In this document: positions 7,779 to 26,474 of the stretch, piece by piece
How positions within the stretch are numbered: the stretch's first letter is position 1
Layout: the number at the start of each line of letters is the position of its first letter
DNA from: Candidatus Rifleibacterium amylolyticum
Lineage (GTDB): Bacteria; Muiribacteriota; Ozemobacteria; Ozemobacterales; Ozemobacteraceae
Length of the DNA stretch: 64,000 nt
Assembly (NCBI GenBank): GCA_009917695.1
Contig: JAACJG010000009.1
Span: forward strand, 186,001 to 250,000
Reading direction: 5' to 3'
Notes under the pieces: model-generated
The model's input: the letters and a program-made list of their open reading frames with translations, nothing else
What the model was told of the DNA's origin: nothing
Databases searched by the model: none
Program-made: the position numbers and the translations under genes

Positions 7779-7929
7779 GAACTTTCCTTTCGCGACATAC
7801 TTCATCTAAGCAACAGCAAATACAACATATTTGCACGGCAAAAGTCATTGCAATTTTTTTGGAACCTTAGAAAAAATCCGGCGGTCATTATTTATGAGAA
7901 CAAAAAAATATTGCATGGAGGTAAGCAAT

Positions 7930-8619
7930 ATGTTGAGAAGGAAATTGATAATCGGCTTTGGTGTTGTGTTGATAGCAGCGATGCTATTCTTTGCCATGCC
8001 AGTGCGAACAGCTGAATCTGGTGTAAACACAACAGACCAGGATGATTTTCTGAAGCCGAAAGAGGATCAGCCTGGCGATCCCCTCGAAAGTTTTCAGAGC
8101 CGCTTTGACAGTTTTATGAGGCAACCTTTTTTTCAAGATCCCAGTCTTAATAACTTGCGCGGTTTCGACCTGTTCAACCGCAACATAAACGAGCATTTTG
8201 AGCGCATATTCAAAAACATTGACATGTTTTCCGGCATGAATTTTCCGACATCATTACTCAGTAACTCTATGATGCAGGTTGACAAGGGAAAGGCTGAGAT
8301 CAAAGAAATTGATGACAAGCTTCTCGTCAAACTCGACTTGCCGGGACTTGACAAGAACTCCATAGACCTGAAGCTTAGCGATAACCGCTTGATCATCTCT
8401 TCCGAGCGTAAGCAAACCACTACCTCAAGTGACGACAGAATCCGGATATATCGCAATGAGATAAGTTATGGCAGCTTTTCACGGATAGTAGATCTTCCAC
8501 AGCCCGTGATCGAGGATAAGGTCGAAGCCAGCTATGAAAACGGCGTTCTAACCGTAATTGCGCCAATAAATAAAAACAAACCGGCCAAAGACCCTGGTCG
8601 AAAAATTGAGATCAGGTAA
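7930..8619 (+). CDS. exported Hsp20/alpha-crystallin family protein
   Basis: 229 aa. The start at 7930 is set by GGAGG 8 nt upstream. The N-terminus (MLRRK then a roughly 18-residue hydrophobic stretch ending FAMPVRTAES) is a Sec signal peptide or anchor, followed by an acidic Gln/Asp-rich linker and a Phe/Asn-rich segment. The alpha-crystallin domain spans roughly residues 115-220, with DLPGLDKNSIDLKL, ISYGSFSRIVDLP and SYENGVLTV. Small heat-shock proteins hold unfolding proteins without ATP; export would place this one in the periplasm, which is unusual. It heads a two-gene unit with a cytoplasmic paralogue 38 nt downstream. Confidence 0.9.
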   Translation: MLRRKLIIGFGVVLIAAMLFFAMPVRTAESGVNTTDQDDFLKPKEDQPGDPLESFQSRFDSFMRQPFFQDPSLNNLRGFDLFNRNINEHFERIFKNIDMFSGMNFPTSLLSNSMMQVDKGKAEIKEIDDKLLVKLDLPGLDKNSIDLKLSDNRLIISSERKQTTTSSDDRIRIYRNEISYGSFSRIVDLPQPVIEDKVEASYENGVLTVIAPINKNKPAKDPGRKIEIR

Positions 8620-8657
8620 TTACTGCGACAAACAATACTGGTTAAGGAGGTTAATTT

Positions 8658-9224
8658 ATGGACTGGAAAAAATTGGCACCCTGGAACTGGTTCAAGAAGG
8701 AAGAAGAAGAAGTAAAGATTCCAGTAAATAAGGGAGACAAACAGCTTGCCAGATATCGATCTAACCCGTTCTCGCAATTTCAGAACGAAATGAACAGGAT
8801 ATTCGACAATCTTTTGAATTCCTTTGCTACACCATCTCTGTTCTCGAATCTCAATGATCTCGGGAAAAATCTGTTTACCGTTTCAGAATGGCTAAGACCA
8901 AGTCTAGACGTCTCTGCGACAGAAAACAATTACCGCATAAGCGTAGAGCTTCCGGGTGTCGAGCCATCAGAAATACGGCTTGAATTACAGGACGATCAGC
9001 TGATCATAACCGGCGAGAAAAAGCAGGAAAAGGAGGTGAAGGAAGACCATTATTATCGCATCGAACGTTCCTATGGCAGTTTTCGTCGCGTATTGTCTCT
9101 ACCTGAAGATGCCGACAAAGACAAAATTGACGCTTCTTTCAAAAACGGCATCATGACAATAACGATAACACGTCTACAACTGCCACAGGCGAAAACAAGA
9201 CTCATCGAAGTCAAAGCATCCTGA
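8658..9224 (+). CDS. Hsp20/alpha-crystallin family small heat-shock protein
   Basis: 188 aa, with a strong AAGGAGG ribosome site. No signal peptide: the N-terminus is MDWKKLAPWNWFKKEEEEV. The crystallin domain covers about residues 80-188 with RPSLDVSATENNYRISVELPG, IERSYGSFRRVLSLP and SFKNGIMTITI. The C-terminal I-x-I/V-type anchor is weak. ATP-independent holdase in the cytoplasm, likely cotranscribed with the exported paralogue upstream and ended by the hairpin at 9241-9266. Confidence 0.93.
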   Translation: MDWKKLAPWNWFKKEEEEVKIPVNKGDKQLARYRSNPFSQFQNEMNRIFDNLLNSFATPSLFSNLNDLGKNLFTVSEWLRPSLDVSATENNYRISVELPGVEPSEIRLELQDDQLIITGEKKQEKEVKEDHYYRIERSYGSFRRVLSLPEDADKDKIDASFKNGIMTITITRLQLPQAKTRLIEVKAS

Positions 9225-10672: not shown

Positions 10673-10694
10673 AAATCGCCAATCAGAAAAATAA

Positions 10695-11627
10695 TTACAA
10701 ACCGGGGTCTGCACTGGCGATGATGTTCTGAAGTTCTGTTTCGTTAAGGCCAGTGGCCTGCACTATAACGTCGTTAGCAATACCAAGTCGAAGCATTCTA
10801 GCTGCAATCTCCAAGCGGCTCTCTTCTTTACCTTCTGCTTTACCTTCTGCTTTACCAATTTCGATGCCTTCTTTGAAGCGGGTATTCATTTCGAGGTTGT
10901 AGACGAATTTATCTTTCTCACGGGCTTCCATGAGAATACGCATACGCTCGTTCGCATTGATGCGCTTAAGCTCAGAAATGGCCATAACGATATTCTCCTC
11001 GTTTTTGATACACTCTGGTATCTCTGTCTCCATGATACCGTAATCAGCAGAAAATTTCATCACATGCAGCCATTTTTCCAGCCTCGTCATCTCCTTGCGC
11101 GGCTTGGCATCACGAAACTTGGTCAGGTCGATATAATGCAAAGCTAACGTGTCTTTTAGAATGATACTGCTGTCACGGTTACAGAATTCAAAAACTTCAT
11201 GCACCCGGTTCGAATCAGGAAACAGATCGAAATTCATGATCGAAATGCTCGTAGCCGAATTCAAAGCGGCGTAATTATCTCCAGCATGAGCCTGATCAGA
11301 ATACAGGCGGGCTACATAAAGAACCGTTCTTGGCACATAAGAACTGTGTTGACAGGCCTGCGCCTCGATATTGAACCAGCGCCCCATTTTGTCACGCGCT
11401 TTAACATCTACAATCGTCAGCTTTTCATCAAAGAAGCGCCGCAGATTGAATGGGTTTAGATACCTCAAGGCTTCAATCTGACAATCATTTTCAAGCTGCA
11501 GCACTGCATTAATAAGGCTGATAGTGATTCGCTCGTGTCCCTTCCTCCCAAATATCCATTGAAAGGCAAAGTCGTTGAGCATCGAATAGATTTTTAATTC
11601 TTTATTCAAGGTAATTGTGTCAGACAT
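10695..11627 (-). CDS. Rpn-family recombination-promoting nuclease / putative transposase
   Basis: 310 aa from the ATG at 11627, which has GGAGG about 9 nt upstream. It matches the Rpn/PD-(D/E)XK nuclease family: N-terminal LNDFAFQWIFGRKGHE, then LTIVDVKARDKMGRWFNIEAQ holding the catalytic Asp and the E-x-Q equivalent of (D/E)xK, and the typical C-terminal helical tail with IGKAEGKAEGKEE repeats. Characterised homologues nick or cut DNA and promote RecA-independent recombination. Often multicopy in genomes; a decayed relative is visible at 9265-9397. No terminal inverted repeats were seen around it. Confidence 0.88.
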   Translation of the reverse strand: MSDTITLNKELKIYSMLNDFAFQWIFGRKGHERITISLINAVLQLENDCQIEALRYLNPFNLRRFFDEKLTIVDVKARDKMGRWFNIEAQACQHSSYVPRTVLYVARLYSDQAHAGDNYAALNSATSISIMNFDLFPDSNRVHEVFEFCNRDSSIILKDTLALHYIDLTKFRDAKPRKEMTRLEKWLHVMKFSADYGIMETEIPECIKNEENIVMAISELKRINANERMRILMEAREKDKFVYNLEMNTRFKEGIEIGKAEGKAEGKEESRLEIAARMLRLGIANDVIVQATGLNETELQNIIASADPGL

Positions 11628-11780
11628 GATCGCAGAACCTCCGGCTGAAAAATTTCGGAGTGTTCGACGACACATCGTATTTAATCACTCCGATAGTTAA
11701 TCAGCCGAAAAACGAAATGGGGAAAAAATAATTGATCATGGCTCAGGTTGTTACATTTTTATCTATACTAAGCAGCACTC

Positions 11781-11789
11781 TGGTATAAT
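11781..11789 (+). promoter_or_regulatory. extended -10 promoter of the 37-aa basic protein
   Basis: TGG followed by TATAAT (11784-11789) is a consensus extended -10 element; no clear -35 at the usual distance. The expected transcript would start near 11796, leaving a leader of about 70 nt before the small gene at 11864. Confidence 0.55.
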
Positions 11790-11863
11790 AAAGCTGGCAG
11801 CCGTAAACTTTTACGGATGCGATGCCTTTATGGCGAAGGATATTGAGAGTGAAAGGAGCATAT

Positions 11864-11977
11864 ATGGGAGACAAAGGCGGCAAGAAAGACAAAGACAAGG
11901 CAAAAAAACAAACCACCAAAAAGCATGACGACAAGGTCAAGCATGCTGAAGAAAAACAGCCAAAACGCAAAACCTGA
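11864..11977 (+). CDS. 37-aa lysine-rich small protein
   Basis: Short gene opening MGDKGGKKDKDKAKK and ending KQPKRKT, about 40% Lys/Arg with no hydrophobic segment. An AGGAG 7 nt before the ATG and an extended -10 promoter upstream support it. Very small MGDK-type basic proteins of unknown role occur in many bacteria; this fits that class by composition only. After the stop there is an inverted repeat (GCCCCGC near 11990, GCGGGGC near 12016) without a T-run, so termination is uncertain. Confidence 0.7.
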   Translation: MGDKGGKKDKDKAKKQTTKKHDDKVKHAEEKQPKRKT

Positions 11978-12096
11978 TAATTAGAGATTGCCCCGCTCAG
12001 ATAGTTAAAAATTTGTGCGGGGCCGTTCGAAAAAACTGGTTGCAACTGCGTTGTTAGAAAAACTCTAGCCCGCAGTTCGCGCCAGTTTTTTTACGC

Positions 12097-12483
12097 TCAG
12101 TTCCAGGCCTGCTTGATGACTATTTCGGTCATTGGATAATGTTTGCGGCTCAAGGTGAAGATATGACCACCGGTCTCTGCTGCCTTTGCTGCCAGAATCG
12201 CATCGTTGAAGTCGATGCCGTGGCTGGGGTTCCACTTTCTGAACAGCCGACCGGCAGTATCTATTATGGCCTGATCGACAGGGGCGGTTTTGAACTGCGA
12301 TAAAAACAGTTCTGTGGCCTGCTCTTCTTCGGGCCGCATGAAAAAAAGTATCTCGCCTCTCTGCAAAGCTCCGACCCACAGCTCATATTCGCCAGAACCG
12401 GCCAGCTTTCTCAAAAAATTCGTCGCCTTCTTTTCGCCACGCAGGTGCCATATCAATATGTCAGAATCGATGTAAGCTCTCAT
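12097..12483 (-). CDS. PIN-domain ribonuclease toxin (VapC type)
   Basis: 128 aa. PIN-domain acidic residues are visible: Asp6 and Asp8 in MRAYIDSDILIWHL, a Glu near residue 44 in LQRGEIL, and the late pair in HGIDFNDAILAA. VapC-like toxins are Mg-dependent RNases that cut tRNA or rRNA. Its start overlaps the upstream small gene by 4 nt, the standard antitoxin-toxin arrangement. Located in a patch of accessory genes. Confidence 0.88.
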   Translation of the reverse strand: MRAYIDSDILIWHLRGEKKATNFLRKLAGSGEYELWVGALQRGEILFFMRPEEEQATELFLSQFKTAPVDQAIIDTAGRLFRKWNPSHGIDFNDAILAAKAAETGGHIFTLSRKHYPMTEIVIKQAWN

Positions 12484-12710
12484 CGCTGATGCCTTCGCAT
12501 TGATTTATTTACCTCGCCACGGATCCGCGCGACGGTTTTGGCGGCACTTTCATCGCGCTGCCAGGCGCCACTGGTATCGGAAAAAACATCGGTTTTTTCC
12601 TGTTCGTTGGTGCGCTTCCAGAGAAGGTTGATCGCGCGCCAGCTCGACGCAAGCATCAAAGTCGATATCATCACAGACTGACTGCGCCGAGCTTTTGACA
12701 GTTCGCGCAA
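12480..12710 (-). CDS. putative antitoxin partner of the PIN toxin
   Basis: Up to 76 aa. The C-terminal part (SGAWQRDESAAKTVARIRGE) resembles the toxin-binding tail of antitoxins paired with PIN toxins. The N-terminus is not typical: no ribbon-helix-helix or AbrB start is visible, the first start codon is a TTG at 12710, and an ATG at 12668 is the alternative; neither has a convincing ribosome site. Another frame over 12600-12690 reads DDIDFDACVELARD, so a frameshift near 12600 is possible. Identity rests mainly on the overlap with the toxin. Confidence 0.55.
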   Translation of the reverse strand: MRELSKARRSQSVMISTLMLASSWRAINLLWKRTNEQEKTDVFSDTSGAWQRDESAAKTVARIRGEVNKSMRRHQR

Positions 12711-12723
12711 AAACTGTCACAAT
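12695..12723 (+). promoter_or_regulatory. promoter-like sequence with 8-bp palindrome
   Basis: TTGACA at 12695-12700 and CACAAT at 12718-12723 with 17-bp spacing would serve the gene at 12754. The -35 box is embedded in a perfect inverted repeat, TGACAGTT (12696-12703) and AACTGTCA (12712-12719), 8-bp gap, which sits at the head of the divergent antitoxin gene. It could be the operator of the toxin-antitoxin pair. Confidence 0.45.
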
Positions 12724-12753
12724 AATGCAGAGAGAGATCTGGGGAGAGAAGCC

Positions 12754-13539
12754 ATGCGACCTGCCAGTTTAGGGTACTGGTGCTGCCTTTTGCTGCTGCT
12801 TGCCGGCATCGAAGCTGTTACGGCTGCGATTTCCGATGACGGGAAGCGGGCAATCGAGCAACTGCGTCAGCGACACCAGAGCGCTGAAGCTGAGCCTGCC
12901 CGGCCAGGAATGCGCGACCTCGCCGAGCAGCTGCGCCAGAAGCACAAAAATAACGAAAAACCCGTCACTCCCCAGGCTTCCAAGACGCCGGCCGCCACAC
13001 CGGTCAAGACTGTCGAACCACTGCAGCCCACAGCAGAGGCTGAACCTTCGACTGTCGCAGCAGAAGAACAGACTGTTTCATCACCGGCCGCCACGGAAGC
13101 ACCAGTTTACGGTACCTGCGGCGACGGTGACCTGCCGGCCGAAGAATACGACCATATCCCCTACCCTGCCGCCCCGGAAAAAAGGGCGCAATCAGCAGAA
13201 ACCTTCCAGCAGAAACAGGCTACCAGCTCAGACGACGCAGGCTTTTCCGGCTTTTTCATAGCGGTTATGGCAGTCATAACTCTCTTTACCTTCGGTTCGG
13301 CCTTTGCCGGTTCCGGTGTTCGCGGCTCGCCTCCGGGAGCATTGCAGGCCGCCGGCACACTCATGCTTCTCGGCGCAATTGTAGTAGGCGGCATAACTGT
13401 GATCAAATTCTGGCCAATCCTGCTGCTGCTCTTCTTCGGCTACGTCTTCAGCCAGTCGAGCCGATCATCGAGCGACAGCAGCTGCTGCGGCTGTGGCTGC
13501 GGCCTCATCATCTTACTTCTCTTGCTTGGGATTCTGTGA
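12754..13539 (+). CDS. membrane protein with Pro/Ala-rich exported region and Ser/Cys-rich tail
   Basis: 261 aa; a GGGGAG ribosome site precedes the ATG. Signal sequence at about residues 8-25, then two copies of an EQLRQ(R/K)H motif (near 35 and 58), a disordered Pro/Thr/Ala/Glu-rich stretch to about residue 150, and two or three hydrophobic segments (about 168-190, 205-232 and the C-terminal end). The tail holds SSDSSCCGCGCG directly before a final hydrophobic helix. No known family recognised. The Cys cluster might bind metal or be acylated; that is speculation. Confidence 0.75.
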   Translation: MRPASLGYWCCLLLLLAGIEAVTAAISDDGKRAIEQLRQRHQSAEAEPARPGMRDLAEQLRQKHKNNEKPVTPQASKTPAATPVKTVEPLQPTAEAEPSTVAAEEQTVSSPAATEAPVYGTCGDGDLPAEEYDHIPYPAAPEKRAQSAETFQQKQATSSDDAGFSGFFIAVMAVITLFTFGSAFAGSGVRGSPPGALQAAGTLMLLGAIVVGGITVIKFWPILLLLFFGYVFSQSSRSSSDSSCCGCGCGLIILLLLLGIL

Positions 13540-13549
13540 ATAAGTGTGA

Positions 13550-16500
13550 CTATAGGCTAACGATGCAGATAAAACGAGCGAATGGGAACAGTTTTTCCGG
13601 GTCTATTTTTACTTCTGGATATTGTTTGTTTTTGGAAACCAGATAGTAACTGCCATCTGCCGCTTTTTTGATTGTCTTCAAGGCATAAGCAGTATCGCCA
13701 AATTCGTTGTTGTATTTGACAGCGAGAATTTGCCCGGATGTGCTGCCACCTCTGTCGGAAGTAATTTTTTCCAGTACTACCAGTGAGCCATCCGGAATTG
13801 GGCTTTTGCCGCCATCCATTGAGTTGCCGCTGATTTTTACGACAAGATGACGATCCGCAGACAAGTTCCCGCTTTGTTTTACAGCGATACTTTCAGATGC
13901 AGTTTCAGAAGTATTCATTTGATCAAGCGCACCAGCAGCCATCTTCAGATCAGGGAAAAATGGCAGAACTATCTGGTCCGCGGCTTCAGCCTCAAGATTG
14001 CCAATTTCTGCAATTATTTGCGTGTTCTCTGCTTTATTTTGCTTTTTCGGCGCAATTTTTCGATGAAAGTACAAGGCCAGAGCATATTCAACCCTTTCGA
14101 CGATCAGTATACGAAACTCTGGGCTGAGCCAGTAATTTACGACTTCGGGTTTCAAGCTGAACGATAGATTACTTCGATCAAAAATAAAATAATCATCCGG
14201 CAGATTTGAAAGAAATTTCAGCGGCATGTCTCGAAGCAATCTTGCAAAACGACTAATAGGAACGCTCGACGGGTTTTCTTCGGCCTCAAGCAAAGAGCAG
14301 TCATGCATTTGTAACGGATGAGTCAGATAATAATCCCGAAATTTCTCTGCAATCCAGTTTACCGGCCAACTTGTCCGCTTTTGAGAATCTGCCAGCAAAA
14401 CCTTCAATACAACCATTTTGTAGGACTTGCTTGGGCTCAATTCTTTCTCGAGATGCTGCAGGAACTTTTCGCCAGGGCTGCTCAGCAATGTCTTTTCGTA
14501 ATCCGAAAGGTCTTCAGCCCTTTCCTTAACCCTCAACCAGTTATTAAAAGTCTTAACAAAATCCTTTGGATGGGCCGCTTCCGGATTGACCAGAAAATCA
14601 AGCAGTGTCGGAGAACTGCCAAGTTTATCTTTCATGCGCTTATATGCATCGAGCAGGAACTCATCGCGGCGGCGCGGCGAAAATGTCCTCTTTATATCGT
14701 CTTCCCAGATGCGTTGCACGCGCAAATCAGCGTCAACGCTACAGCCTGCTGGCAATCTGAACCGTGGCGGAATGCGCAGAGGTCTGTCGGTTGAAACAGA
14801 ATACTCACCCGACATTATCATGGGAATGACATAAGAATTTCTGTAGTTGCCGACAAAATCAAGAACAACCAGGAATTCTTTGTCTCCTGTGAGGCGAAGT
14901 CCACGACCCAGTTGCTGCAATATTACCGTTGGCGATTCAGTCGGTCTCAAAAGTAAAACATGACTCACAGCAGGGATATCCACACCTTCACCGAGAATAT
15001 CGACTGAACAGATCACTTTAAGAGAATCGCTTTCTGACTGGAGGTGAGCGATTACTGTTTCTCGCTCTAATTCTGAAGAATCACCAGTCAAACAGGCTGC
15101 ATCAATACCACTTCGCCTGAATGCTTCGGTCATATACTTTGCATGGCCTATATTCGAGCAAAATGCCAGCGCCTTGATTTTGCCTGAAGACGGCAGATAT
15201 GCAAGTAGATTGCCGACAATGATGTTGGTTCTAGTATCGTTACTCAGAGCCCTTTCAAGCTCCTGTTCGTCATAACCAACGCCTGTCCAGCGAATCTTAC
15301 CGTAGTCAGTCGGATCATAGATCGCAAAATACTGAAAAGGAGCCAGCCATCTCTGGTCTATCGCATTGAACAGCCTGGCTTCATAAGAAATATCATAATC
15401 GCAAAGCCGCAAAACATCACGGCCATCCATTCTTTCCGGAGTTGCTGTCAGGCCCAGAAAAAATTTGCATTCAAAATGCTCAAGAATCCTTTTGTAGGTT
15501 GCGGCTTCACTGTGATGAAATTCATCGAACACAATGTATTCAAAGCGGTCTCTTGCAAACATTCCAAGCGCAGCCGGGCGAGAAAGCGTCTGAACCATTG
15601 CAAAAACGCTCTGATCAGATTGGGCAATCCTCTTTTTTTCTCCTGCTGAAATATTGCCTGTAAAAAGCTCACCAAATTCCGGTTGTTCAAGCACTTCCCG
15701 GAATGTCTCGCGAGCCTTTGTCAGAATGTTTTCACGATGCACAAGAAATAGAACGTTCTTCAGTCCACTTTGTGCAAAATCAAAAGCGGCCAGATGAGTT
15801 TTACCCAGACCTGTTGCAGCTATTACAGCTGTCTTTCGAACTCCGTTGTTACGTCTTTCAGCCAGTTGTTGCAGTGCTTCCTGCTGGCTTTGCCGCGGTT
15901 TTGGGCAACGCATTGCTGAAGGCTCGACAGCTAATTCCTTGAGCAGCCTCGAACGTAGCTGACGCGACTTCTCGTAACGATTTCGGTAATATTCCAGAAA
16001 TTCCCCGGAAATTTCGATAGCATCTTCATGCCAGTATTTAAGATAGTTTTCCTGTGCAACTCGATATACTGTGCGGCCATCTTCTCGATTGAACGGCAGA
16101 TTCACTTCCGAGTTCGAGAAAAAATTCCATTCTTCATTATCACGCAGACCGCCACCAGTCATGTTTGAAGATCCAATAATCAACGAGTTGCGGTCATCGG
16201 CTTTTTTGAACAGAAAGCACTTCAGGTGAAAGGCCGGAGGAACCTGGCTGAAACGATCGATCCTGTCATCTGATGCCGGATAAAAAACTTTCAACTGCAA
16301 CCCTGGATGCAGACTCTGAATATGTAGCAGATCTTCCGGATTATTGAAATCGTTCATGGTAGAGGTAAGCAACTGCAAAGAGCCGCCGCGGGAAAGAAAA
16401 TCCTCAAGCGGGCGCTTCAACAGATTGATCATTCCGCGTGTTAAAAATGCAGACGCGATTTGGCATTCTGAGCTTTCGGCAAGCTCCTGTTTAATGACAT

Positions 16501-16918
16501 CCAACAATGATGGCGAGCTTGACGTGGAAACAACAAAGGGATTCAACAGGAATCCGCTTTCCGATTCGTGACCCGAAATTTCCTCATCCTTTGAATAAAC
16601 CGCATGCAGGTATATCTGGTCGGCAAATGCCCCACGACTATCGGCACGCTTTCGCCTGGTTTCCTCGATCTGTGCCAACGACACATTATAGTGCGCCGCC
16701 AAAGAAAGTATAACCTCTAATACATCAGCGGCTTCTTTGGTAAATTCAGAGCTGTCTCTGGCTTTGAACAGTTCATAAGCCTCTTCAAGGAGCTTCAAAC
16801 GAAGAAAATACTCAAGCTTTCCGGAATCGAGCTGCTTCGTTACAGCCTTCTTACCCTCTTTCGCTATGATAGAGGGTATCTTGTCACGAACCAGCTTGCG
16901 GTAAAAGATCGGCGCCAT
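13550..16918 (-). CDS. MazG-like / PLD nuclease / SF2 helicase / S24 peptidase-like fusion
   Basis: 1122 aa, four recognisable parts. Residues 1-105: MazG-like NTP-pyrophosphohydrolase fold with the metal motif Glu46-x-x-Glu49 ... Glu62-x-x-Asp65. About 130-300: phospholipase-D-type nuclease with one HKD motif (His231-x-Lys233 ... GSSN 249-252). About 355-720: superfamily-2 helicase with Walker A around Lys373 (ATGLGKTH), box DEFH at 465-468, motif III GLTATPERMDG and motif VI QQLGRGLR. Residues 1021-1122: LexA/S24-like domain with GNSM (Ser1033) and a Lys near 1081, the Ser-Lys dyad. Such PLD-helicase proteins occur in defence loci; an anti-phage role is inference. No partner gene is adjacent. 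Confidence 0.85.
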   Translation of the reverse strand: MAPIFYRKLVRDKIPSIIAKEGKKAVTKQLDSGKLEYFLRLKLLEEAYELFKARDSSEFTKEAADVLEVILSLAAHYNVSLAQIEETRRKRADSRGAFADQIYLHAVYSKDEEISGHESESGFLLNPFVVSTSSSPSLLDVIKQELAESSECQIASAFLTRGMINLLKRPLEDFLSRGGSLQLLTSTMNDFNNPEDLLHIQSLHPGLQLKVFYPASDDRIDRFSQVPPAFHLKCFLFKKADDRNSLIIGSSNMTGGGLRDNEEWNFFSNSEVNLPFNREDGRTVYRVAQENYLKYWHEDAIEISGEFLEYYRNRYEKSRQLRSRLLKELAVEPSAMRCPKPRQSQQEALQQLAERRNNGVRKTAVIAATGLGKTHLAAFDFAQSGLKNVLFLVHRENILTKARETFREVLEQPEFGELFTGNISAGEKKRIAQSDQSVFAMVQTLSRPAALGMFARDRFEYIVFDEFHHSEAATYKRILEHFECKFFLGLTATPERMDGRDVLRLCDYDISYEARLFNAIDQRWLAPFQYFAIYDPTDYGKIRWTGVGYDEQELERALSNDTRTNIIVGNLLAYLPSSGKIKALAFCSNIGHAKYMTEAFRRSGIDAACLTGDSSELERETVIAHLQSESDSLKVICSVDILGEGVDIPAVSHVLLLRPTESPTVILQQLGRGLRLTGDKEFLVVLDFVGNYRNSYVIPMIMSGEYSVSTDRPLRIPPRFRLPAGCSVDADLRVQRIWEDDIKRTFSPRRRDEFLLDAYKRMKDKLGSSPTLLDFLVNPEAAHPKDFVKTFNNWLRVKERAEDLSDYEKTLLSSPGEKFLQHLEKELSPSKSYKMVVLKVLLADSQKRTSWPVNWIAEKFRDYYLTHPLQMHDCSLLEAEENPSSVPISRFARLLRDMPLKFLSNLPDDYFIFDRSNLSFSLKPEVVNYWLSPEFRILIVERVEYALALYFHRKIAPKKQNKAENTQIIAEIGNLEAEAADQIVLPFFPDLKMAAGALDQMNTSETASESIAVKQSGNLSADRHLVVKISGNSMDGGKSPIPDGSLVVLEKITSDRGGSTSGQILAVKYNNEFGDTAYALKTIKKAADGSYYLVSKNKQYPEVKIDPEKLFPFARFICIVSL

Positions 16919-17028
16919 GGCGGCAGTTTAAACCAGATTCAAATTGCATTCAACCGAAACCTCGACGAAATGTCTCCTGACCCGACAAGCAAGTTTGTGG
17001 TATAAAGGAAAGGTCACAGGAGGTAATT

Positions 17029-17730
17029 ATGACTACTAGATCAACCATACGGATCGTTGTTTGTCTCGCGTTGTTCGTGTGTGCGCTGACTGCTGCTGAA
17101 GCTTTCAACTGGCGCAATGTCTGCAAAAAATGCGATTATATCAACCAGCCGTCGGCGACCCATTGTGAATCATGCCAGACGCCGATGAATCATTGTTTGA
17201 AGTGCGGCACCGATAACAGAATCGATGCCGACTACTGTGTTAAGTGCGCTGCACCGCTGGCTGAAATGCGCATTCTTGGGTCGATCGAACCCGAAGTGCG
17301 TGAACAGCTCAAGCTCGGCGAGTCGCCCAGAGCCAGAGCGGATCTCGACATCAGAAGTCTTCGCCATCTGATCGCCATCGACCCGGAAAACACCGAAAAA
17401 TACCAGTTCGAACTCGGCCTGAAATACCAGGCAATAAACTTCTTTTCAAGAGAATCCGAGACTTGGCGAGCGTTTGTCAAAGACTTCCCGGCCTCGCAAC
17501 ATATTCCGCTGGTAAAGCAATATGCCTCTGAATCACTGCGAAAATGGGGCTATCTGATGTATGAACAGGGCCGATATTCCAAAGCTGTCGAGCTGCTTAA
17601 CGAGTCACTGCAGATGAATCCGGACAACAAAACCGCCAGAACGTGGCTCGGCCAGGCAACCAAAGCCGCACGCAGGGGCGACAGAATTGTCGAACCGGTT
17701 GAAGCTGCTGAGCCAGTATACGGATATTAA
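17029..17730 (+). CDS. exported zinc-ribbon and TPR protein
   Basis: 233 aa with an AGGAGG ribosome site and a signal peptide (residues about 8-25, ending AEA). Three Cys-x-x-Cys pairs follow at about residues 32-73 (CKKCDY, CESCQTP, CLKCGTDN...CVKC), making two treble/zinc-ribbon modules. Residues about 100-225 are helical with a TPR-like unit (YSKAVELLNESLQMNPDNKTA). A zinc ribbon behind a signal peptide is odd because such modules are usually cytoplasmic. Unknown role, perhaps protein-protein binding at the envelope. Ended by the hairpin at 17753-17787. Confidence 0.78.
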   Translation: MTTRSTIRIVVCLALFVCALTAAEAFNWRNVCKKCDYINQPSATHCESCQTPMNHCLKCGTDNRIDADYCVKCAAPLAEMRILGSIEPEVREQLKLGESPRARADLDIRSLRHLIAIDPENTEKYQFELGLKYQAINFFSRESETWRAFVKDFPASQHIPLVKQYASESLRKWGYLMYEQGRYSKAVELLNESLQMNPDNKTARTWLGQATKAARRGDRIVEPVEAAEPVYGY

Positions 17731-17752
17731 GCCTGCAACCTCTATAATCTTA

Positions 17753-17787
17753 TGTGCTGACGGAGTTATACCGGCAGCACATTTTTT
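17753..17787 (+). terminator. rho-independent terminator
   Basis: TGTGCTG (17753-17759) pairs with CAGCACA (17775-17781), with an inner CGG/CCG pairing, then six T. Follows the zinc-ribbon/TPR gene. Confidence 0.88.
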
Positions 17788-17906
17788 ATGCGCCGAAAAC
17801 ATCTTCCGAGAACATTATAAGTTCGCGACAGACAAGGCAAACAAAAGAGCTCTTGACTAATCGGGCAGCGGCAGATACTCTGCAGTAAAATCAGCGTGAA
17901 CAGAAC

Positions 17907-20105
17907 ATGAGCAACATAAAACAGACAGAAACGCAATCAGCTAAATTCGGGACTTTTGGCGGGGTTTTTACACCCAGCGTTCTCACCATTCTTGGCGTTA
18001 TCATGTTCCTGCGCTTTCCGACGGTGGTCGGTTACGCGGGGTTGTGGTCGGCGCTGCTGATACTGCTGGCGGGAAAGTCGATCTCGGTTATCACTGCCCT
18101 GTCACTCGCGTCGATTTCGACGAATATGCGCGTCAAGGGCGGCGGTGCCTACTTTCTTATCAGCCGCAGTCTTGGCATCGAGTTTGGCGGCGTCATCGCC
18201 ATTTTCTTTTATATTGCCCAGGCAATTGCAGTTACCCTTTATGTAATAGGTTTCACCGAAGCGGTATTTTCGGCGATTCCTGATACTTCACTGTCGTTTC
18301 AGGCCGTAGCAACAATTACCAATTTTCTGGTTTTCATCTCGGTCTTCATCGGCGCCGGCTGGACAATCAAACTGCAATACGGAATTCTCGCGGTAATGTC
18401 GATTTCCTGCTTATCGTTTTTTGCAGGCGCATCTCAGAGTTTTTCAGTCGATACGCTCAACGCCAACCTGGCAGCAAACTGGACATCAGAACACAGTTTT
18501 TTCAGTGTCTTTGCCCTGTTTTTTCCGGCAGTTACCGGAATTATGGCCGGAGTCAACATGTCTGGCGACCTGAAAAACCCCAGCAAGGCGATTCCCAAAG
18601 GAACCTTCTGGGCAGTCGGAACAACTGCGCTCCTGTATGCCGCAATCGCGCTGTTTCTGGCTGCTTCGTGTGAAAGATCGGTATTGCTTGGCGATACTTT
18701 TGTAATCAAAGACATGGCCTGGTCGGGCGCGCTGATTTACGCCGGAGTTTTCTGCGCGACGATTTCTTCGGCCCTCGGCAGCATGATGGGGGCACCCAGA
18801 ATTCTTCAGGCTTTCGCCCGCGATAACATTTTCCAGAAACTCAAATGGTTCGGGGCCGGCAGCGGCAAAGCCGACGAGCCACGCCGCGCCATAGTTCTCA
18901 CCTTTCTCATCGCTCAGGCCGGGATCATGGCTGGCGACCTCGACAGCGTCGCGCCGATCATCACTATGTTTTTTCTGCTTACTTACGGAACCATCAATCT
19001 TGCGTGCTTTTATGAAATGATCTCGCAAAACCCCAGCTTCAGACCGACATTTAAAATGCACCACTGGTTGGTAGCACTGCTGGGGGCTCTTGGCTGTCTG
19101 GCGGTTATGATTCTGATCAACCCGCTGTGGGCAACCATCGCCATGATTCTTGCCGGCGGCATGTTTTATTACATCGAACGTTCTGAAATCATCGTGCAAT
19201 GGGGCGACCTGCACAGCGGACTGGCCTACGAACAGGCGCGCAAGGCTCTGCTGCGCCTCGAAAACGAAAAGTTTCACCCCAAGAACTGGCGCCCCTCTAT
19301 TCTTGCGCTGAGCGGCGGAACCTGGAACCGCCTGCACCTGCTGCAGTATGCCTGTGCGCTTTCGGCCGGCAAGGGCGTGGTTTCGCTTGCGCAGGTCATC
19401 ATCGGCGACCTGGAAGAACACTCGGTCAGGCAGCAGGAAGCTGAAAAGATAATGCGCAAGTTTATCCGAAACGAGGAACTGCCTGCTTTTCCGGTGGTTA
19501 TAGTTGACCAGGACTTTTCAAATGCGCTCAAGGCGCTTCTGCAATGCCACGGTATCGGCGGACTCAAGCCGAACTCGCTTCTGCTCGGCTGGACAAACGA
19601 AGGCGCCGACTCGCCGACTTTCTCTTATATTCTCAACATGGGCAAGCGCATGAAAAAGAGCGTGCTTGTCGTAAAAAGCACACAGGAACAGGGAGAATGG
19701 GAAACGCCTGTCGGCGCGATAAATATTATCTGGCAAAGCAGCATCAACAGTTCCATGACGCTGCTGCTCGGCTTTCTCCTCAAGGAAAACCGCGAATGGC
19801 GCCATTGCCCGCTGCGAATTCTGCGGCCGATCGCGCTGAAGGCAGATCTGATGAAGGTCAAATCCGATATGAAAACCATGTTAAAAAACGCGCGAATCGA
19901 GGCGGAAGTGGTTGTATTGCCCACCGACAGCCCACTCGCAGCGATAAGAGAAAATCTTGGGAGCTCTGCCGTTATACTCGCCGGTTTTGAAGCCCCATCT
20001 GAAGACGAAACCCTCGACGCCATAGCAAAAATGCGCGAAATCATGGCTCTGCCGGGCGACGTAGTTCTCTGCTCGTCAGCCGGGGAGATCTCGCTTACGG
20101 CCTGA
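17907..20105 (+). CDS. APC-superfamily cation-chloride cotransporter-like permease (SLC12 type)
   Basis: 732 aa. The N-terminal FGGVFTPSVLTILGVIMFLR and VKGGGAYFLISRSLG are the first two-helix signatures of the cation-chloride cotransporter branch of the APC superfamily; 12 hydrophobic helices span about residues 20-425. A cytosolic C-terminal domain (about 430-732) carries repeated Rossmann-like strands, as in eukaryotic NKCC/KCC regulatory tails (ALSGGTWNRLHLLQYA). Function as Na/K/Cl or amino-acid transporter is not decided by sequence. The ribosome site is weak. The next gene is convergent. Confidence 0.85.
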   Translation: MSNIKQTETQSAKFGTFGGVFTPSVLTILGVIMFLRFPTVVGYAGLWSALLILLAGKSISVITALSLASISTNMRVKGGGAYFLISRSLGIEFGGVIAIFFYIAQAIAVTLYVIGFTEAVFSAIPDTSLSFQAVATITNFLVFISVFIGAGWTIKLQYGILAVMSISCLSFFAGASQSFSVDTLNANLAANWTSEHSFFSVFALFFPAVTGIMAGVNMSGDLKNPSKAIPKGTFWAVGTTALLYAAIALFLAASCERSVLLGDTFVIKDMAWSGALIYAGVFCATISSALGSMMGAPRILQAFARDNIFQKLKWFGAGSGKADEPRRAIVLTFLIAQAGIMAGDLDSVAPIITMFFLLTYGTINLACFYEMISQNPSFRPTFKMHHWLVALLGALGCLAVMILINPLWATIAMILAGGMFYYIERSEIIVQWGDLHSGLAYEQARKALLRLENEKFHPKNWRPSILALSGGTWNRLHLLQYACALSAGKGVVSLAQVIIGDLEEHSVRQQEAEKIMRKFIRNEELPAFPVVIVDQDFSNALKALLQCHGIGGLKPNSLLLGWTNEGADSPTFSYILNMGKRMKKSVLVVKSTQEQGEWETPVGAINIIWQSSINSSMTLLLGFLLKENREWRHCPLRILRPIALKADLMKVKSDMKTMLKNARIEAEVVVLPTDSPLAAIRENLGSSAVILAGFEAPSEDETLDAIAKMREIMALPGDVVLCSSAGEISLTA

Positions 20106-20108
20106 GTT

Positions 20109-20738
20109 TTAAAGCCCGGTCAGCGGGATATCGAGCAGAGGAAAGTCTTTAAAGCTGGGGTGGTCGAAGTGCCACCATTCGCTGGCAAGCAGCTTGAAGC
20201 CGGCCGCCTGCATCGCCTGCTGCAATATCTTGAGATTAGCTTCTACCGCCGGTGGCAGGCCCTTCTGAAAGGCGCCGGCTTTGGCGCCAAATTCGTCATA
20301 GAGGCTCGGCATTTCGACTTCGGCACCGTCAAGCGTCAGCAGCGTCAGATCGACCGAGGCGCCGCGATTGTGGCGCGAACCGGTATCGGGGTGCGCTACG
20401 AAGTTGCGGTCAGGATTTTTTTCCCAGAGCTTGCGCTGCACCGACAGTGGCCGGTAGGCATCGAGTATCTTGAGGCGGTAGCCCTGCGCGCGCAGCAGTT
20501 CGGCTGCGCTCGCCAGCGCTGCGGCGGCTGGTTCCACCAGAAAGGCGCGATTGGCCGGGTAAAGCGTTTCGCCGGTAAAATTATACGGCGTGGCATAGGG
20601 CATATCGACTACCAGATCGGTTATCAGGGCCTGCAGATCGACAAGATTATGGCGCGGCAGCTCAGCCAGCTGCGCCAGCAAAATCGCCGATGAAGCCAGC
20701 ACCATGGCCAGGCACCCTGCAAATCTTAATATCAGCAT
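20109..20738 (-). CDS. exported D-alanyl-D-alanine dipeptidase (VanX/DdpX family)
   Basis: 209 aa. Zinc dipeptidase that cleaves D-Ala-D-Ala. Signal peptide at residues 1-22; zinc motif S-x-H-x-x-G-x-x-x-D as SRHNRGASVD about residues 121-130, and the second part SEWWHFD near residue 186 containing the catalytic Glu and zinc His. LDAYRP near residue 92 carries the transition-state Arg. Export suggests a role in peptidoglycan peptide turnover rather than vancomycin resistance, and no vanHA genes are nearby. Confidence 0.9.
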   Translation of the reverse strand: MLILRFAGCLAMVLASSAILLAQLAELPRHNLVDLQALITDLVVDMPYATPYNFTGETLYPANRAFLVEPAAAALASAAELLRAQGYRLKILDAYRPLSVQRKLWEKNPDRNFVAHPDTGSRHNRGASVDLTLLTLDGAEVEMPSLYDEFGAKAGAFQKGLPPAVEANLKILQQAMQAAGFKLLASEWWHFDHPSFKDFPLLDIPLTGL

Positions 20739-23465: not shown

Positions 23466-26400
23466 ATGGAGCGAACGAGAGTGCTGATTATAACTTCCAG
23501 TCAGAAGAGAACCGGTTTTATCTGGATTCTGCTGCTGGCTGTGTTGTTATTGGCACCAATGGTATGGCTCAATAATCTGATCGTCGAACTCCGCGAAAAG
23601 GACGAGACTTATCTCGACATGCAGGCCCGCGAGCGCCTGCTGAACGAAATGGAGAGCTTTCAAGAGCGACTGAAAGCCGAAAAACATATTGAGACTGCTC
23701 TTGAAGACATGCGCAGAGAGTTCGGTATTAACATCGATAATGACAATTACCGGAACCTGACCTTTTCTTATGCTACCGACCCGATGCTCATTCAAAGCAA
23801 TTTTCCGGCAAGCGCCAGTGAATATCTCAGGCAAAAATATCATATTACACCGCTGCTTACATTTGCTGTCGATTGCGATATGCAGAATTTTTATTCACAC
23901 TATTCGCAAAATTTATTCTCGGATGTGAAAGAACGCCTGGCCTTTGAAAATGCGGCCGCTTTCTGGATGGTTTTCTCACAACATGACGTTGTTAATGAAC
24001 TACCAACAACGCCTGATTTGAACGCAAAATTTGATTTGTACAAAAACAGTGGCAACCGCGGCTATGAAAATGCCCAACAGAAATTCAACGATCTTTTACA
24101 ACGTCATATTTCTGCTTTTGCAACTCTTCCAACAGCAAACAGCATCTGTCGGGTGTTCTTTTCCAACCGATTCGGAGCCCAGCGGTCATTTCAGATTATC
24201 AACCAGATAACCAGACCACGAGGCCTGCGCATAAGCATGCTCGGCTGCTATTATTTTGTTATCAACAGTTGCGACATTTCACCTTCGATGATACTAAAAA
24301 CCTCTCTTAACAGCTTAGATCAGACAATAGAAAGATCATTCATAAAAAGAGGCATCGAGCAACCTCAATTTGTCTACACCAGCGACTGTCTTGCCTATTA
24401 TTCAGCATTTCCTGCACATTATTCGACACTTATCGAAGACTATGCAATCAAAAACCTGCTGGCTCGCAACCATTTGCGCAAATTCGTCAATCAGCACGTT
24501 CTCTGTGTCAGAATTGACAGCAAACACCTCAAGTCACGATTTGCTGCAGCAGAAAAAATCAGCGGAGCTATGGTAAGAATGCTTCTGCTGTTGTTCTTTG
24601 CCCTGCTGATCAGGTCATACATGCGTGAACTTGAATACGGAATGCGACTTGCAAAAAAACTGCGCATAGCAGTAGCAATCATCGTTATGCTGCCAGTAAT
24701 CGGAGTTTTTCTGGTCAGCCGCCAGTATGAAGCTAACAGCGAAAAGATGAGCCTGATCAAATGCCAGACAAAAATAAAACGCCAGATCAATTTTCTGGCA
24801 AAACTTATCAACGACACAGACGCACGAACTGTGTTGATGTTGCAGGAAGTCAAAAAATTTCTGATTTACCGCCATTATAATATCGATAACGAAAAAATCA
24901 GAAAACTGCTGAACGAAGGGCATTTCCGCAAATTAACCGCAGGCGTGCTTGAGGGATCGCTGACCAGAGACGGCAACGCCATCATGACAGCGCGCAGAAA
25001 AAACACCGACAGCTCTACAGTGCGAAGCGGTCTATACCAGATTCTGCTCGACCTTGGAGCCATTGATCAAAATTCTGAAGCTGTTAAAAAGATCCACAAA
25101 CAGTATACCCTCCTGATCGGGCTGGCCGGCGCTCTAACAAATCTATTCAGTGAACCAGAAGCGCTTGCCCGCGAAGGTCTGCTCAACAAGCATATTTTGT
25201 CGGCTTCGGCGCTGATGAGATCTGTTCATCATTTTATCGCACACCCACGAACCCCGCAGACAATAGACGCCATTGCGCTGTTCATGGCCGATGACATCAA
25301 CATTGTAAAAAAGCTCTACGCGCAACTGTCGCAACTTTCCTTACATTTGTTCCGAGAATACGACGAAAACTGCCAGATCGATTATGCTCTGGCAATGCGA
25401 AGTCCCAGCTCAGTACGCACCTATCAGGCACCAAATTTTTCGGCCCCTTCCAACCGAATGGCGCAGCTGGCTGCAAAAGCGATGAACAATAAAACTTCAG
25501 GTAGTATTATTAGAAGATCTCCTGGACAGATCAACATCGACAGCTGGACAATTTCTGATCTCAATCCGGTGATCATTCTCGCCAGGGCCACTGTTTCCAG
25601 AACTTCATCTGCACATCTGATGTTCGTCATCCTCCCATGGATGCTGCTGCTCTACTCCATTCTGGCAGTTACGCTCATTTCAGATGTTCTCGCCGACATA
25701 TTTCTGGCACCGGTCAAAGCGCTGCTCGCGTTTGTCAGGCAACTTCGGCAGAATGACCTGCACGTTAAGGTTTTGATTACTTCTGGCGGCGAGTTCGAAG
25801 AGCTTGGCAATTCATTCAACCAGATGGTAGAAGGCCTCAGACAGCGCGAAAAAATGAGGCGCTTTGTCTCTGACAAGCTGGTTGCAAGTCTTGAAAAGCA
25901 AGGCGAATCGCAGCAGCCAGGCCGCGCTTCCTTAAGCGTGTTGAGTTCCGATATTCGCGGATTTACTGCTTTGAGCGAACAGTTTCCGCCTGAAGAAATC
26001 GTGAGTCTTCTCAACGATTACTTTTCCTCAATGGAAGAAGCACTTCAGATGTATGGCGGCTCGATCGAGAAAATAGTAGGGGATGCAATTACAGCGGCTT
26101 TTTATGACGATGCCGGTCAGGAATGTCACGCGACAAGGGCCTGCAAGGCCGCGCGTGAGATGAAAGCGAAGCTTAGCGTTTTTAACCGCGAGCGACAGGA
26201 AAGAAAAAAATTTACCATCAGCAATGGAATCGGCATCGCCAGCGGAGAGGCCGTGCTCGGCTTTGCCGCCGGCAAGTCAGGTCGTCGTGAGTTCGTTCTT
26301 ATCGGCGAGGTAACTCATCGCGCCGAAAAACTTGAGACACTGACGCGCTGGGCAAAAAGCACCGGCATTTTTGTTGACCGGGTAACCGCCGATCTTTTGT

Positions 26401-26474
26401 CTGAAGAAGTCACGGAAGTTTATGTGAACAACGAAGAAGAGCAGACCGTCTGCCTGGAGCTGCGGCATGACTGA
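23466..26474 (+). CDS. membrane class III nucleotide cyclase, metal-binding (C1-like) half
   Basis: 1002 aa. Hydrophobic segments at about 18-38, 369-383, 400-419 and 718-740 would frame two large extracytoplasmic sensor regions; a HAMP domain (about 741-795) leads to a class III cyclase domain (about 820-985). Both metal Asps are present, Asp829 (SSDIRGFT) and Asp873 (IVGDAI), with Lys869. The residues that stabilise the transition state are not: the usual V-N-L-A-A-R-L is VTHRAEKL, giving His951 for Asn and Lys955 for Arg, and the adenine-site Asp is Glu942. Its stop overlaps the next cyclase gene by 8 nt. A homodimer should be poorly active or inactive. Confidence 0.88.
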   Translation: MERTRVLIITSSQKRTGFIWILLLAVLLLAPMVWLNNLIVELREKDETYLDMQARERLLNEMESFQERLKAEKHIETALEDMRREFGINIDNDNYRNLTFSYATDPMLIQSNFPASASEYLRQKYHITPLLTFAVDCDMQNFYSHYSQNLFSDVKERLAFENAAAFWMVFSQHDVVNELPTTPDLNAKFDLYKNSGNRGYENAQQKFNDLLQRHISAFATLPTANSICRVFFSNRFGAQRSFQIINQITRPRGLRISMLGCYYFVINSCDISPSMILKTSLNSLDQTIERSFIKRGIEQPQFVYTSDCLAYYSAFPAHYSTLIEDYAIKNLLARNHLRKFVNQHVLCVRIDSKHLKSRFAAAEKISGAMVRMLLLLFFALLIRSYMRELEYGMRLAKKLRIAVAIIVMLPVIGVFLVSRQYEANSEKMSLIKCQTKIKRQINFLAKLINDTDARTVLMLQEVKKFLIYRHYNIDNEKIRKLLNEGHFRKLTAGVLEGSLTRDGNAIMTARRKNTDSSTVRSGLYQILLDLGAIDQNSEAVKKIHKQYTLLIGLAGALTNLFSEPEALAREGLLNKHILSASALMRSVHHFIAHPRTPQTIDAIALFMADDINIVKKLYAQLSQLSLHLFREYDENCQIDYALAMRSPSSVRTYQAPNFSAPSNRMAQLAAKAMNNKTSGSIIRRSPGQINIDSWTISDLNPVIILARATVSRTSSAHLMFVILPWMLLLYSILAVTLISDVLADIFLAPVKALLAFVRQLRQNDLHVKVLITSGGEFEELGNSFNQMVEGLRQREKMRRFVSDKLVASLEKQGESQQPGRASLSVLSSDIRGFTALSEQFPPEEIVSLLNDYFSSMEEALQMYGGSIEKIVGDAITAAFYDDAGQECHATRACKAAREMKAKLSVFNRERQERKKFTISNGIGIASGEAVLGFAAGKSGRREFVLIGEVTHRAEKLETLTRWAKSTGIFVDRVTADLLSEEVTEVYVNNEEEQTVCLELRHD

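Follow-up and report, generated by a model that had tools for sequence, protein, structure and literature searches.

An S24 Domain in the Place of the Target Reader of a SauUSI-Like Protein from Candidatus Rifleibacterium amylolyticum

Results

The window analyzed here is a stretch of 64,000 nucleotides from Candidatus Rifleibacterium amylolyticum. An open frame at positions 13550–16918, present on the minus strand only, codes for a protein of 1122 residues. From the N- to the C-terminus, this protein consists of a MazG-like NTP pyrophosphohydrolase, a PLD nuclease, an SF2 helicase, a helical coupler, and an S24 domain, all encoded on the minus strand. A first-pass annotation had given the coordinates and the length correctly, leaving the strand unstated, and had described the gene as a four-domain fusion. 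This fusion is real and not a product of chance. A relative in a second genome of the same phylum (G027, represented by loci L008 and L023) is 63% identical to the window protein and has the identical order in one frame. The individual domains were also recognized correctly. Absent from the annotation were the coupler, the relationship to SauUSI, and a LexA-type Ala995–Gly996 site.

The head of the protein (residues 1–110, 16589–16918) is predicted to be an all-alpha, COG4997-like domain of the MazG type. The Pfam family PRA-PH matches this region with an E value of only 0.0019, which is below the cut-off. Free-standing proteins annotated as nucleoside triphosphate pyrophosphohydrolases align to the head with 36–46% identity, 82–95% coverage, and E values down to 4e-14. 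The head contains an EExxE motif (45–49) and an ExxD motif (62–65), both of which are conserved in two close relatives. No MazG relative was found in viral contigs.

The central part of the protein closely follows the plan of SauUSI. The PLD-type nuclease (residues 137–302, 16013–16510) matches PLDc_2 in Pfam (E = 1.1e-5). His231, Lys233, Asn252, and Glu263 are invariant in 33 aligned sequences, which bears out the earlier assignment of a single HKD-type motif, and the HxK feature of SauUSI-type enzymes is present. The SF2 helicase or translocase (residues 340–700, 14819–15901) matches ResIII (E = 5.2e-36) as well as Helicase_C. Its core is RadD-like and contains a Walker A motif (370–374), DEFHH (465–469), and motif VI in the form QQLGRGLR (668–675). 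As in SauUSI-type enzymes, the ATPase is followed by a coupler (residues 701–955, 14054–14818), which is helical in the model and stands in place of the SauUSI coupler (PMC7913695). The window protein matches the PADLOC model mREase_IV with E = 6e-90 and, in the PDB, SauUSI (7clg) with E = 3e-88 over residues 117–843, so that the alignment ends within the coupler. When an AlphaFold2 model of the whole protein (mean pLDDT of 79.8) is compared by Foldseek, SauUSI ranks first (E = 5e-41), and the structurally aligned residues are about 21% identical. No solved structure is closer than that of SauUSI. Identification as a Dnd/phosphorothioate restriction enzyme or as PbeA was rejected, because these matches are weaker than those to SauUSI-type proteins.

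SauUSI itself consists of a PLD nuclease, an SF2 ATPase, a coupler (618–805), and a C-terminal target recognition domain with an SRA fold (PMC7913695), a domain that is named DUF3427 (PMC3874153). A Pfam search of the window protein for DUF3427 gave no match at E ≤ 1, although the same model matches relatives; the last domain is S24. Judged from sequence and models, a LexA/CI/UmuD-fold domain occupies the place of the SRA/DUF3427 reader. Since the defining reader was tested for and is absent, the window protein falls short of full membership in the SauUSI Type IV family. As regards motor and nuclease, it probably works like SauUSI. Neither PADLOC 2023 nor NCBIfam 2026 contains a model that spans the whole MazG-PLD-helicase-S24 architecture.

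The coupler is connected to the S24 domain by a linker that is predicted to be disordered (residues 956–981, 13976–14053, pLDDT <50). The S24 domain itself (residues 982–1122, 13553–13975) is recognized by Pfam with E = 5.7e-9 in the whole protein and 1.2e-10 as a domain alone. Each of 39 diverse aligned sequences matches this Pfam family alone. Modeled separately (pLDDT of 82.8), the domain matches LexA and the hyper-cleavable fragment of the lambda repressor. Comparison with 3k2z, 8gmu, and 2hnf gives Z scores of about 12–13 over 110–123 residues, including the cleavage-site region. In a PDB search with a profile of four S24 sequences no chain matched; a profile of 39 sequences found UmuD, weakly. 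In this match (8gmt) the Cys-Gly of UmuD falls on the corresponding site of the S24 domain, which confirms the columns of the site and of the Ser.

UmuD is cleaved at a Cys-Gly bond and LexA at an Ala-Gly bond. By alignment with the E. coli LexA and UmuD sequences, we take Ala995-Gly996 (13931–13936) to be the scissile bond, and Ser1033 (13820–13822) and Lys1081 (13676–13678) to be the nucleophile and the general base of the catalytic dyad. The Ala-Gly bond and the Ser-Lys dyad are also given in PMC7101444. The alignment confirms the positions of Ser1033 and Lys1081 given by the first-pass annotation, which had also named poor conservation of either residue as evidence against its proposal. 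In this respect the two residues differ: among 84 S24 copies Ser1033 is invariant, whereas position 1081 is Lys in only 4 and Arg in 80. Ala994 and Gly996 are also invariant (84/84), and position 995 is Cys in 79 copies and Ala in 4. The Lys1081 copies, which represent three distinct sequences, all belong to the MazG clade; a relative from the same phylum with a methyltransferase head (L011) has Arg. The Ser-Lys dyad is therefore complete alongside a MazG partner and altered to Arg alongside a methyltransferase partner. The strict retention of the site and the Ser argues that either the chemistry or a docked geometry still matters. The Arg at position 1081 argues against ordinary fast cleavage in most relatives, and fast LexA-type cleavage therefore does not characterize the family as a whole. 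The window protein carries the full LexA-type set (Ala995-Gly996, Ser1033, Lys1081), and because all three elements are present, self-cleavage of this protein is possible. In the models, residues 991–1000 are helical and do not form an extended cleavage loop.

The window's phylum was sampled with 39 genomes, 13 of which encode a PLD-helicase relative and 4 the S24 subtype. The close relative in G025 (L007, 1435–4362, minus strand) comprises MazG, PLD, and helicase domains and breaks off within the linker, immediately ahead of the place of S24. The PLD-helicase body thus exists without the S24 module, as read from this sequence; L007 also resembles the predicted cleavage product of the window protein. 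In G002 (L010) the head is degenerate and S24 is absent, and in G035 (L011) a SAM methyltransferase head stands in place of MazG. The four-domain gene of G006 (L009, also L022) is broken by a frameshift, which splits the relative in the coupler (L022, 1592–5040, and L009). A programmed frameshift was considered and set aside, since an assembly or decay effect is more likely. The L022 sequence is labeled Methylomirabilis, although it matches the G006 contig from the window's own family. At L023 (4342–5202, minus strand), a protein with DUF3427 and HNH_2 domains adjoins the MazG-PLD-helicase-S24 gene, such that a reader domain is found on a separate nuclease.

A search of genome contigs with the window protein as the lone query gave no confirmed match, whereas an S24-domain profile succeeded. 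Scanning 85,000 genomes with this profile returned 268 relatives; the best 80 were retained for analysis. Among these 80, two MazG-clade loci rank first with 61% identity and the next reach at most 43%; it is therefore unlikely that the scanned genomes contain another close relative belonging to the MazG clade. The relatives come from many genera of marine and soil bacteria and comprise PLD-helicase-S24 proteins with or without an SRA tail as well as HNH-S24 proteins. We classified 64 long proteins by helicase-motif position and tail length, and Pfam confirmed the classes on representatives. The architecture methyltransferase-PLD-helicase-S24-SRA accounts for 33 of these, PLD-helicase-S24-SRA for 13, and PLD-helicase-S24 for 16; one is a MazG-PLD-helicase-S24 protein and one (L067) a helicase-S24 protein with no recognized PLD domain. 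Judged by tail length, S24 is followed by DUF3427 in 46 of the 64. Another four loci, namely L030, L054, L096, and L102 (5873–7411, on a viral contig), encode HNH-S24 proteins; these indicate that the S24 module can move between nucleases. The suggestion of the first-pass annotation that S24 is part of a sensor-effector set gains indirect support from this shuffling between PLD-helicase and HNH nucleases and from the position of S24 at the place of the SRA reader.

Nearly all of these relatives are accompanied by a small TehB-like SAM methyltransferase, either fused or encoded just upstream. It lies immediately upstream on the same strand at 28 of 30 loci with unfused PLD-helicase-S24 and at all four HNH-S24 loci, and is homologous to the fused head, mostly with 50–60% identity. 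Inspection of the sequence by eye revealed no evident DNA-methyltransferase motif IV, so that the partner may be something other than a DNA methyltransferase. Other neighbors of the S24-nuclease genes vary, apart from an HNH_2 gene at 11 loci and some genes that are common within Marinobacter. The MazG head does not belong to a general four-part set: only a small clade of Riflebacteria has it, and elsewhere the partner is the methyltransferase. A tree built from the PLD-helicase core places the MazG clade, which here includes L010, on a long branch apart from the methyltransferase-linked S24 clade (supports 100/100 and 100/99). A single origin of S24 within the PLD-helicase tree was not rejected (p = 0.08). 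A further tree, of 75 rows, was distorted by L067.

Phage and viral collections contain almost no relatives, the exception being the one viral contig with HNH-S24, and in phage records the S24 subtype was not found beyond one weak repressor match. We know of no published name for the methyltransferase and S24-nuclease pairs. Literature searches, mainly outside the subscription journals, gave no description of these pairs or of PLD-helicase-S24 proteins. Two further loci are worth recording. Two PLD-helicase genes, one with S24 and the other of the SauUSI type, lie side by side with an ABC three-component system on a Pseudoalteromonas plasmid (L006, 12163–23657). In Pseudomonas sp. N040 (L028, 7836–14400) two large open frames (1162 and 1060 residues) follow a methyltransferase-PLD-helicase-S24-SRA gene.

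The window gene is part of a 9.4 kb accessory segment (10675–20126) that is absent from the congener G024 (L128). The flanks of this genome are collinear with the window up to 10674 and again from 20127 onward; a gap of about 210 bases separates them. Missing along with the S24 gene are a PDDEXK_2 gene, a PIN pair, a TPR gene, and a transporter. Pfam confirms the neighbors proposed earlier, namely a PIN-domain toxin-like gene (12097–12483, minus strand, E = 1.5e-11) and an Rpn/transposase-type PDDEXK_2 nuclease gene (10695–11675, minus strand, E = 1.7e-48). A small gene that overlaps the PIN gene (12480–12710, minus strand) has no Pfam match and is a candidate antitoxin. The gene has a G+C content of 45.6%, compared with 49.9% for the window. 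Outside the window's phylum, the S24 subtype was found in 7 of 369 Gammaproteobacteria and, among 42 genomes from the phylum of G040, in 3. The idea of a defense-type nuclease in an accessory zone is thus supported by the relationship to SauUSI, the patchy distribution, and the absence of the segment from the congener. Elsewhere in the window, translations indicate two adjacent large adenylate/guanylate-cyclase-like membrane proteins (23466–29325) and two Hsp20-like genes (7831–9224), each pair in tandem.

The host genome encodes one RecA and, besides the protein described here, a canonical LexA (with HTH, Ala-Gly, Ser, and Lys) and one CI-like S24 protein. Since RecA and LexA are present, a RecA-responsive S24 domain is possible in this host. 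Inspection by eye of the region upstream of the gene revealed no recognizable LexA/SOS box.

Discussion

We read the window protein as a patchily distributed restriction or defense nuclease with a SauUSI-like motor and an S24 sensor or switch, which in the MazG clade would be a switch of the LexA cleavage type. We regard this reading as plausible rather than probable. What weighs most against it is the Arg found in most relatives, together with the helical form of the cleavage region in the models. A dimeric PLD nuclease, a DNA-translocating SF2 motor, and the coupler would together form a single-chain, ATP-dependent restriction-type nuclease, and the S24 module is most likely the sensor or switch that licenses it. 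The intact MazG-PLD-helicase-S24 protein would be latent. Invasion or a DNA-damage signal, by analogy a RecA-ssDNA filament, may stimulate an intramolecular cut at 995–996. Loss of the 127-residue tail would then switch the motor-nuclease on or, with lower likelihood, switch it off, while the MazG head would simultaneously hydrolyze dNTPs or modified dNTPs. A more far-reaching version seems unlikely to us: RecA-filament-stimulated self-cleavage would gate the nuclease, with the SOS signal read inside it and a dNTP-destroying domain fused to it, and S24 would be the shared trigger of methyltransferase-linked defense on both PLD-helicase and HNH nucleases.

S24 may instead no longer be a protease but a reading or docking module that replaces SRA as the target-recognition domain and works with no cleavage involved, its target being DNA (a modified base or a particular structure), a RecA filament, or a phage protein. 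The position of S24 at the place of the target reader, its fusion to HNH nucleases, the exchange of Lys for Arg in most copies, and the helical cleavage-site region in the model are all consistent with such a role. On the other hand, a dead protease would be expected to lose the Ser and the Ala-[Cys/Ala]-Gly site by drift, S24 and SRA occur together in many relatives, so that S24 is not simply a substitute reader, and the clade of the window protein retains Lys. This alternative is a possible one, if somewhat doubtful.

The switch could also operate in reverse, with DNA damage leading to S24 cleavage and shutting the nuclease off, as a built-in restriction alleviation that protects a gapped or foreign-marked host chromosome. 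In S24-SRA proteins a cut at the conserved site would indeed sever the reader from the motor-nuclease, and for Type I enzymes proteolysis is a known route to restriction alleviation (PMC4231737). The window protein, however, has no reader after S24 that could be severed, and L007 keeps an intact-looking body in the absence of S24; we consider this direction decidedly unlikely. Least probable is a helicase-nuclease for DNA repair or housekeeping. The RadD-like helicase core and the hint at SOS given by a LexA-type module would suit this function, but the distribution is patchy (7/369 Gammaproteobacteria, 4/39 genomes of its own phylum), the neighbors vary apart from the methyltransferase, the gene and its segment are missing in the congener, and the closest solved structure is that of SauUSI.

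In repressors and in UmuD, S24 modules have a known role as switches. Their appearance as an exchangeable part of restriction-type nucleases suggests that some immune nucleases may take DNA damage or the replication of a phage as their signal, in place of base modification or in addition to it. In addition, the pair of a methyltransferase gene with an S24-nuclease gene, which occurs in many genera, is apparently undescribed.

Comparison with Known Systems

The window protein shares with SauUSI the PLD nuclease, the SF2 ATPase, and the coupler in equal order, as well as the HxK motif. The two differ at both ends: the tail of SauUSI is an SRA/DUF3427 reader of 5mC/5hmC, whereas the window protein has MazG as its head and S24 as its tail. 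SauUSI-type enzymes require ATP and act solely on DNA that carries modified sites. With LexA, lambda CI, and UmuD it has in common the fold of the S24 domain, the Ala/Cys-Gly site, and the Ser, to which the MazG clade adds the Lys. LexA, CI, and UmuD undergo autocleavage, as a rule stimulated by RecA. In contrast to these proteins, S24 is fused here to a motor-nuclease instead of a DNA-binding HTH, has additional residues behind the Ser motif (GGK.PI) and ahead of the Lys strand, and in most relatives has Arg in place of Lys. The head is about 40% identical to MazG/COG4997-like pyrophosphohydrolases and has their EExxE...ExxD signature, but those enzymes, which split (d)NTPs into NMP and PPi, are usually free proteins of about 110 residues. 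Finally, the methyltransferase pairs with PLD-helicase-S24(-SRA) or HNH-S24, found mostly in Gammaproteobacteria, share either the body or the S24 module with the window protein, and differ from it by a TehB-like SAM methyltransferase in place of MazG, Arg in place of Lys, and, often, an SRA tail.
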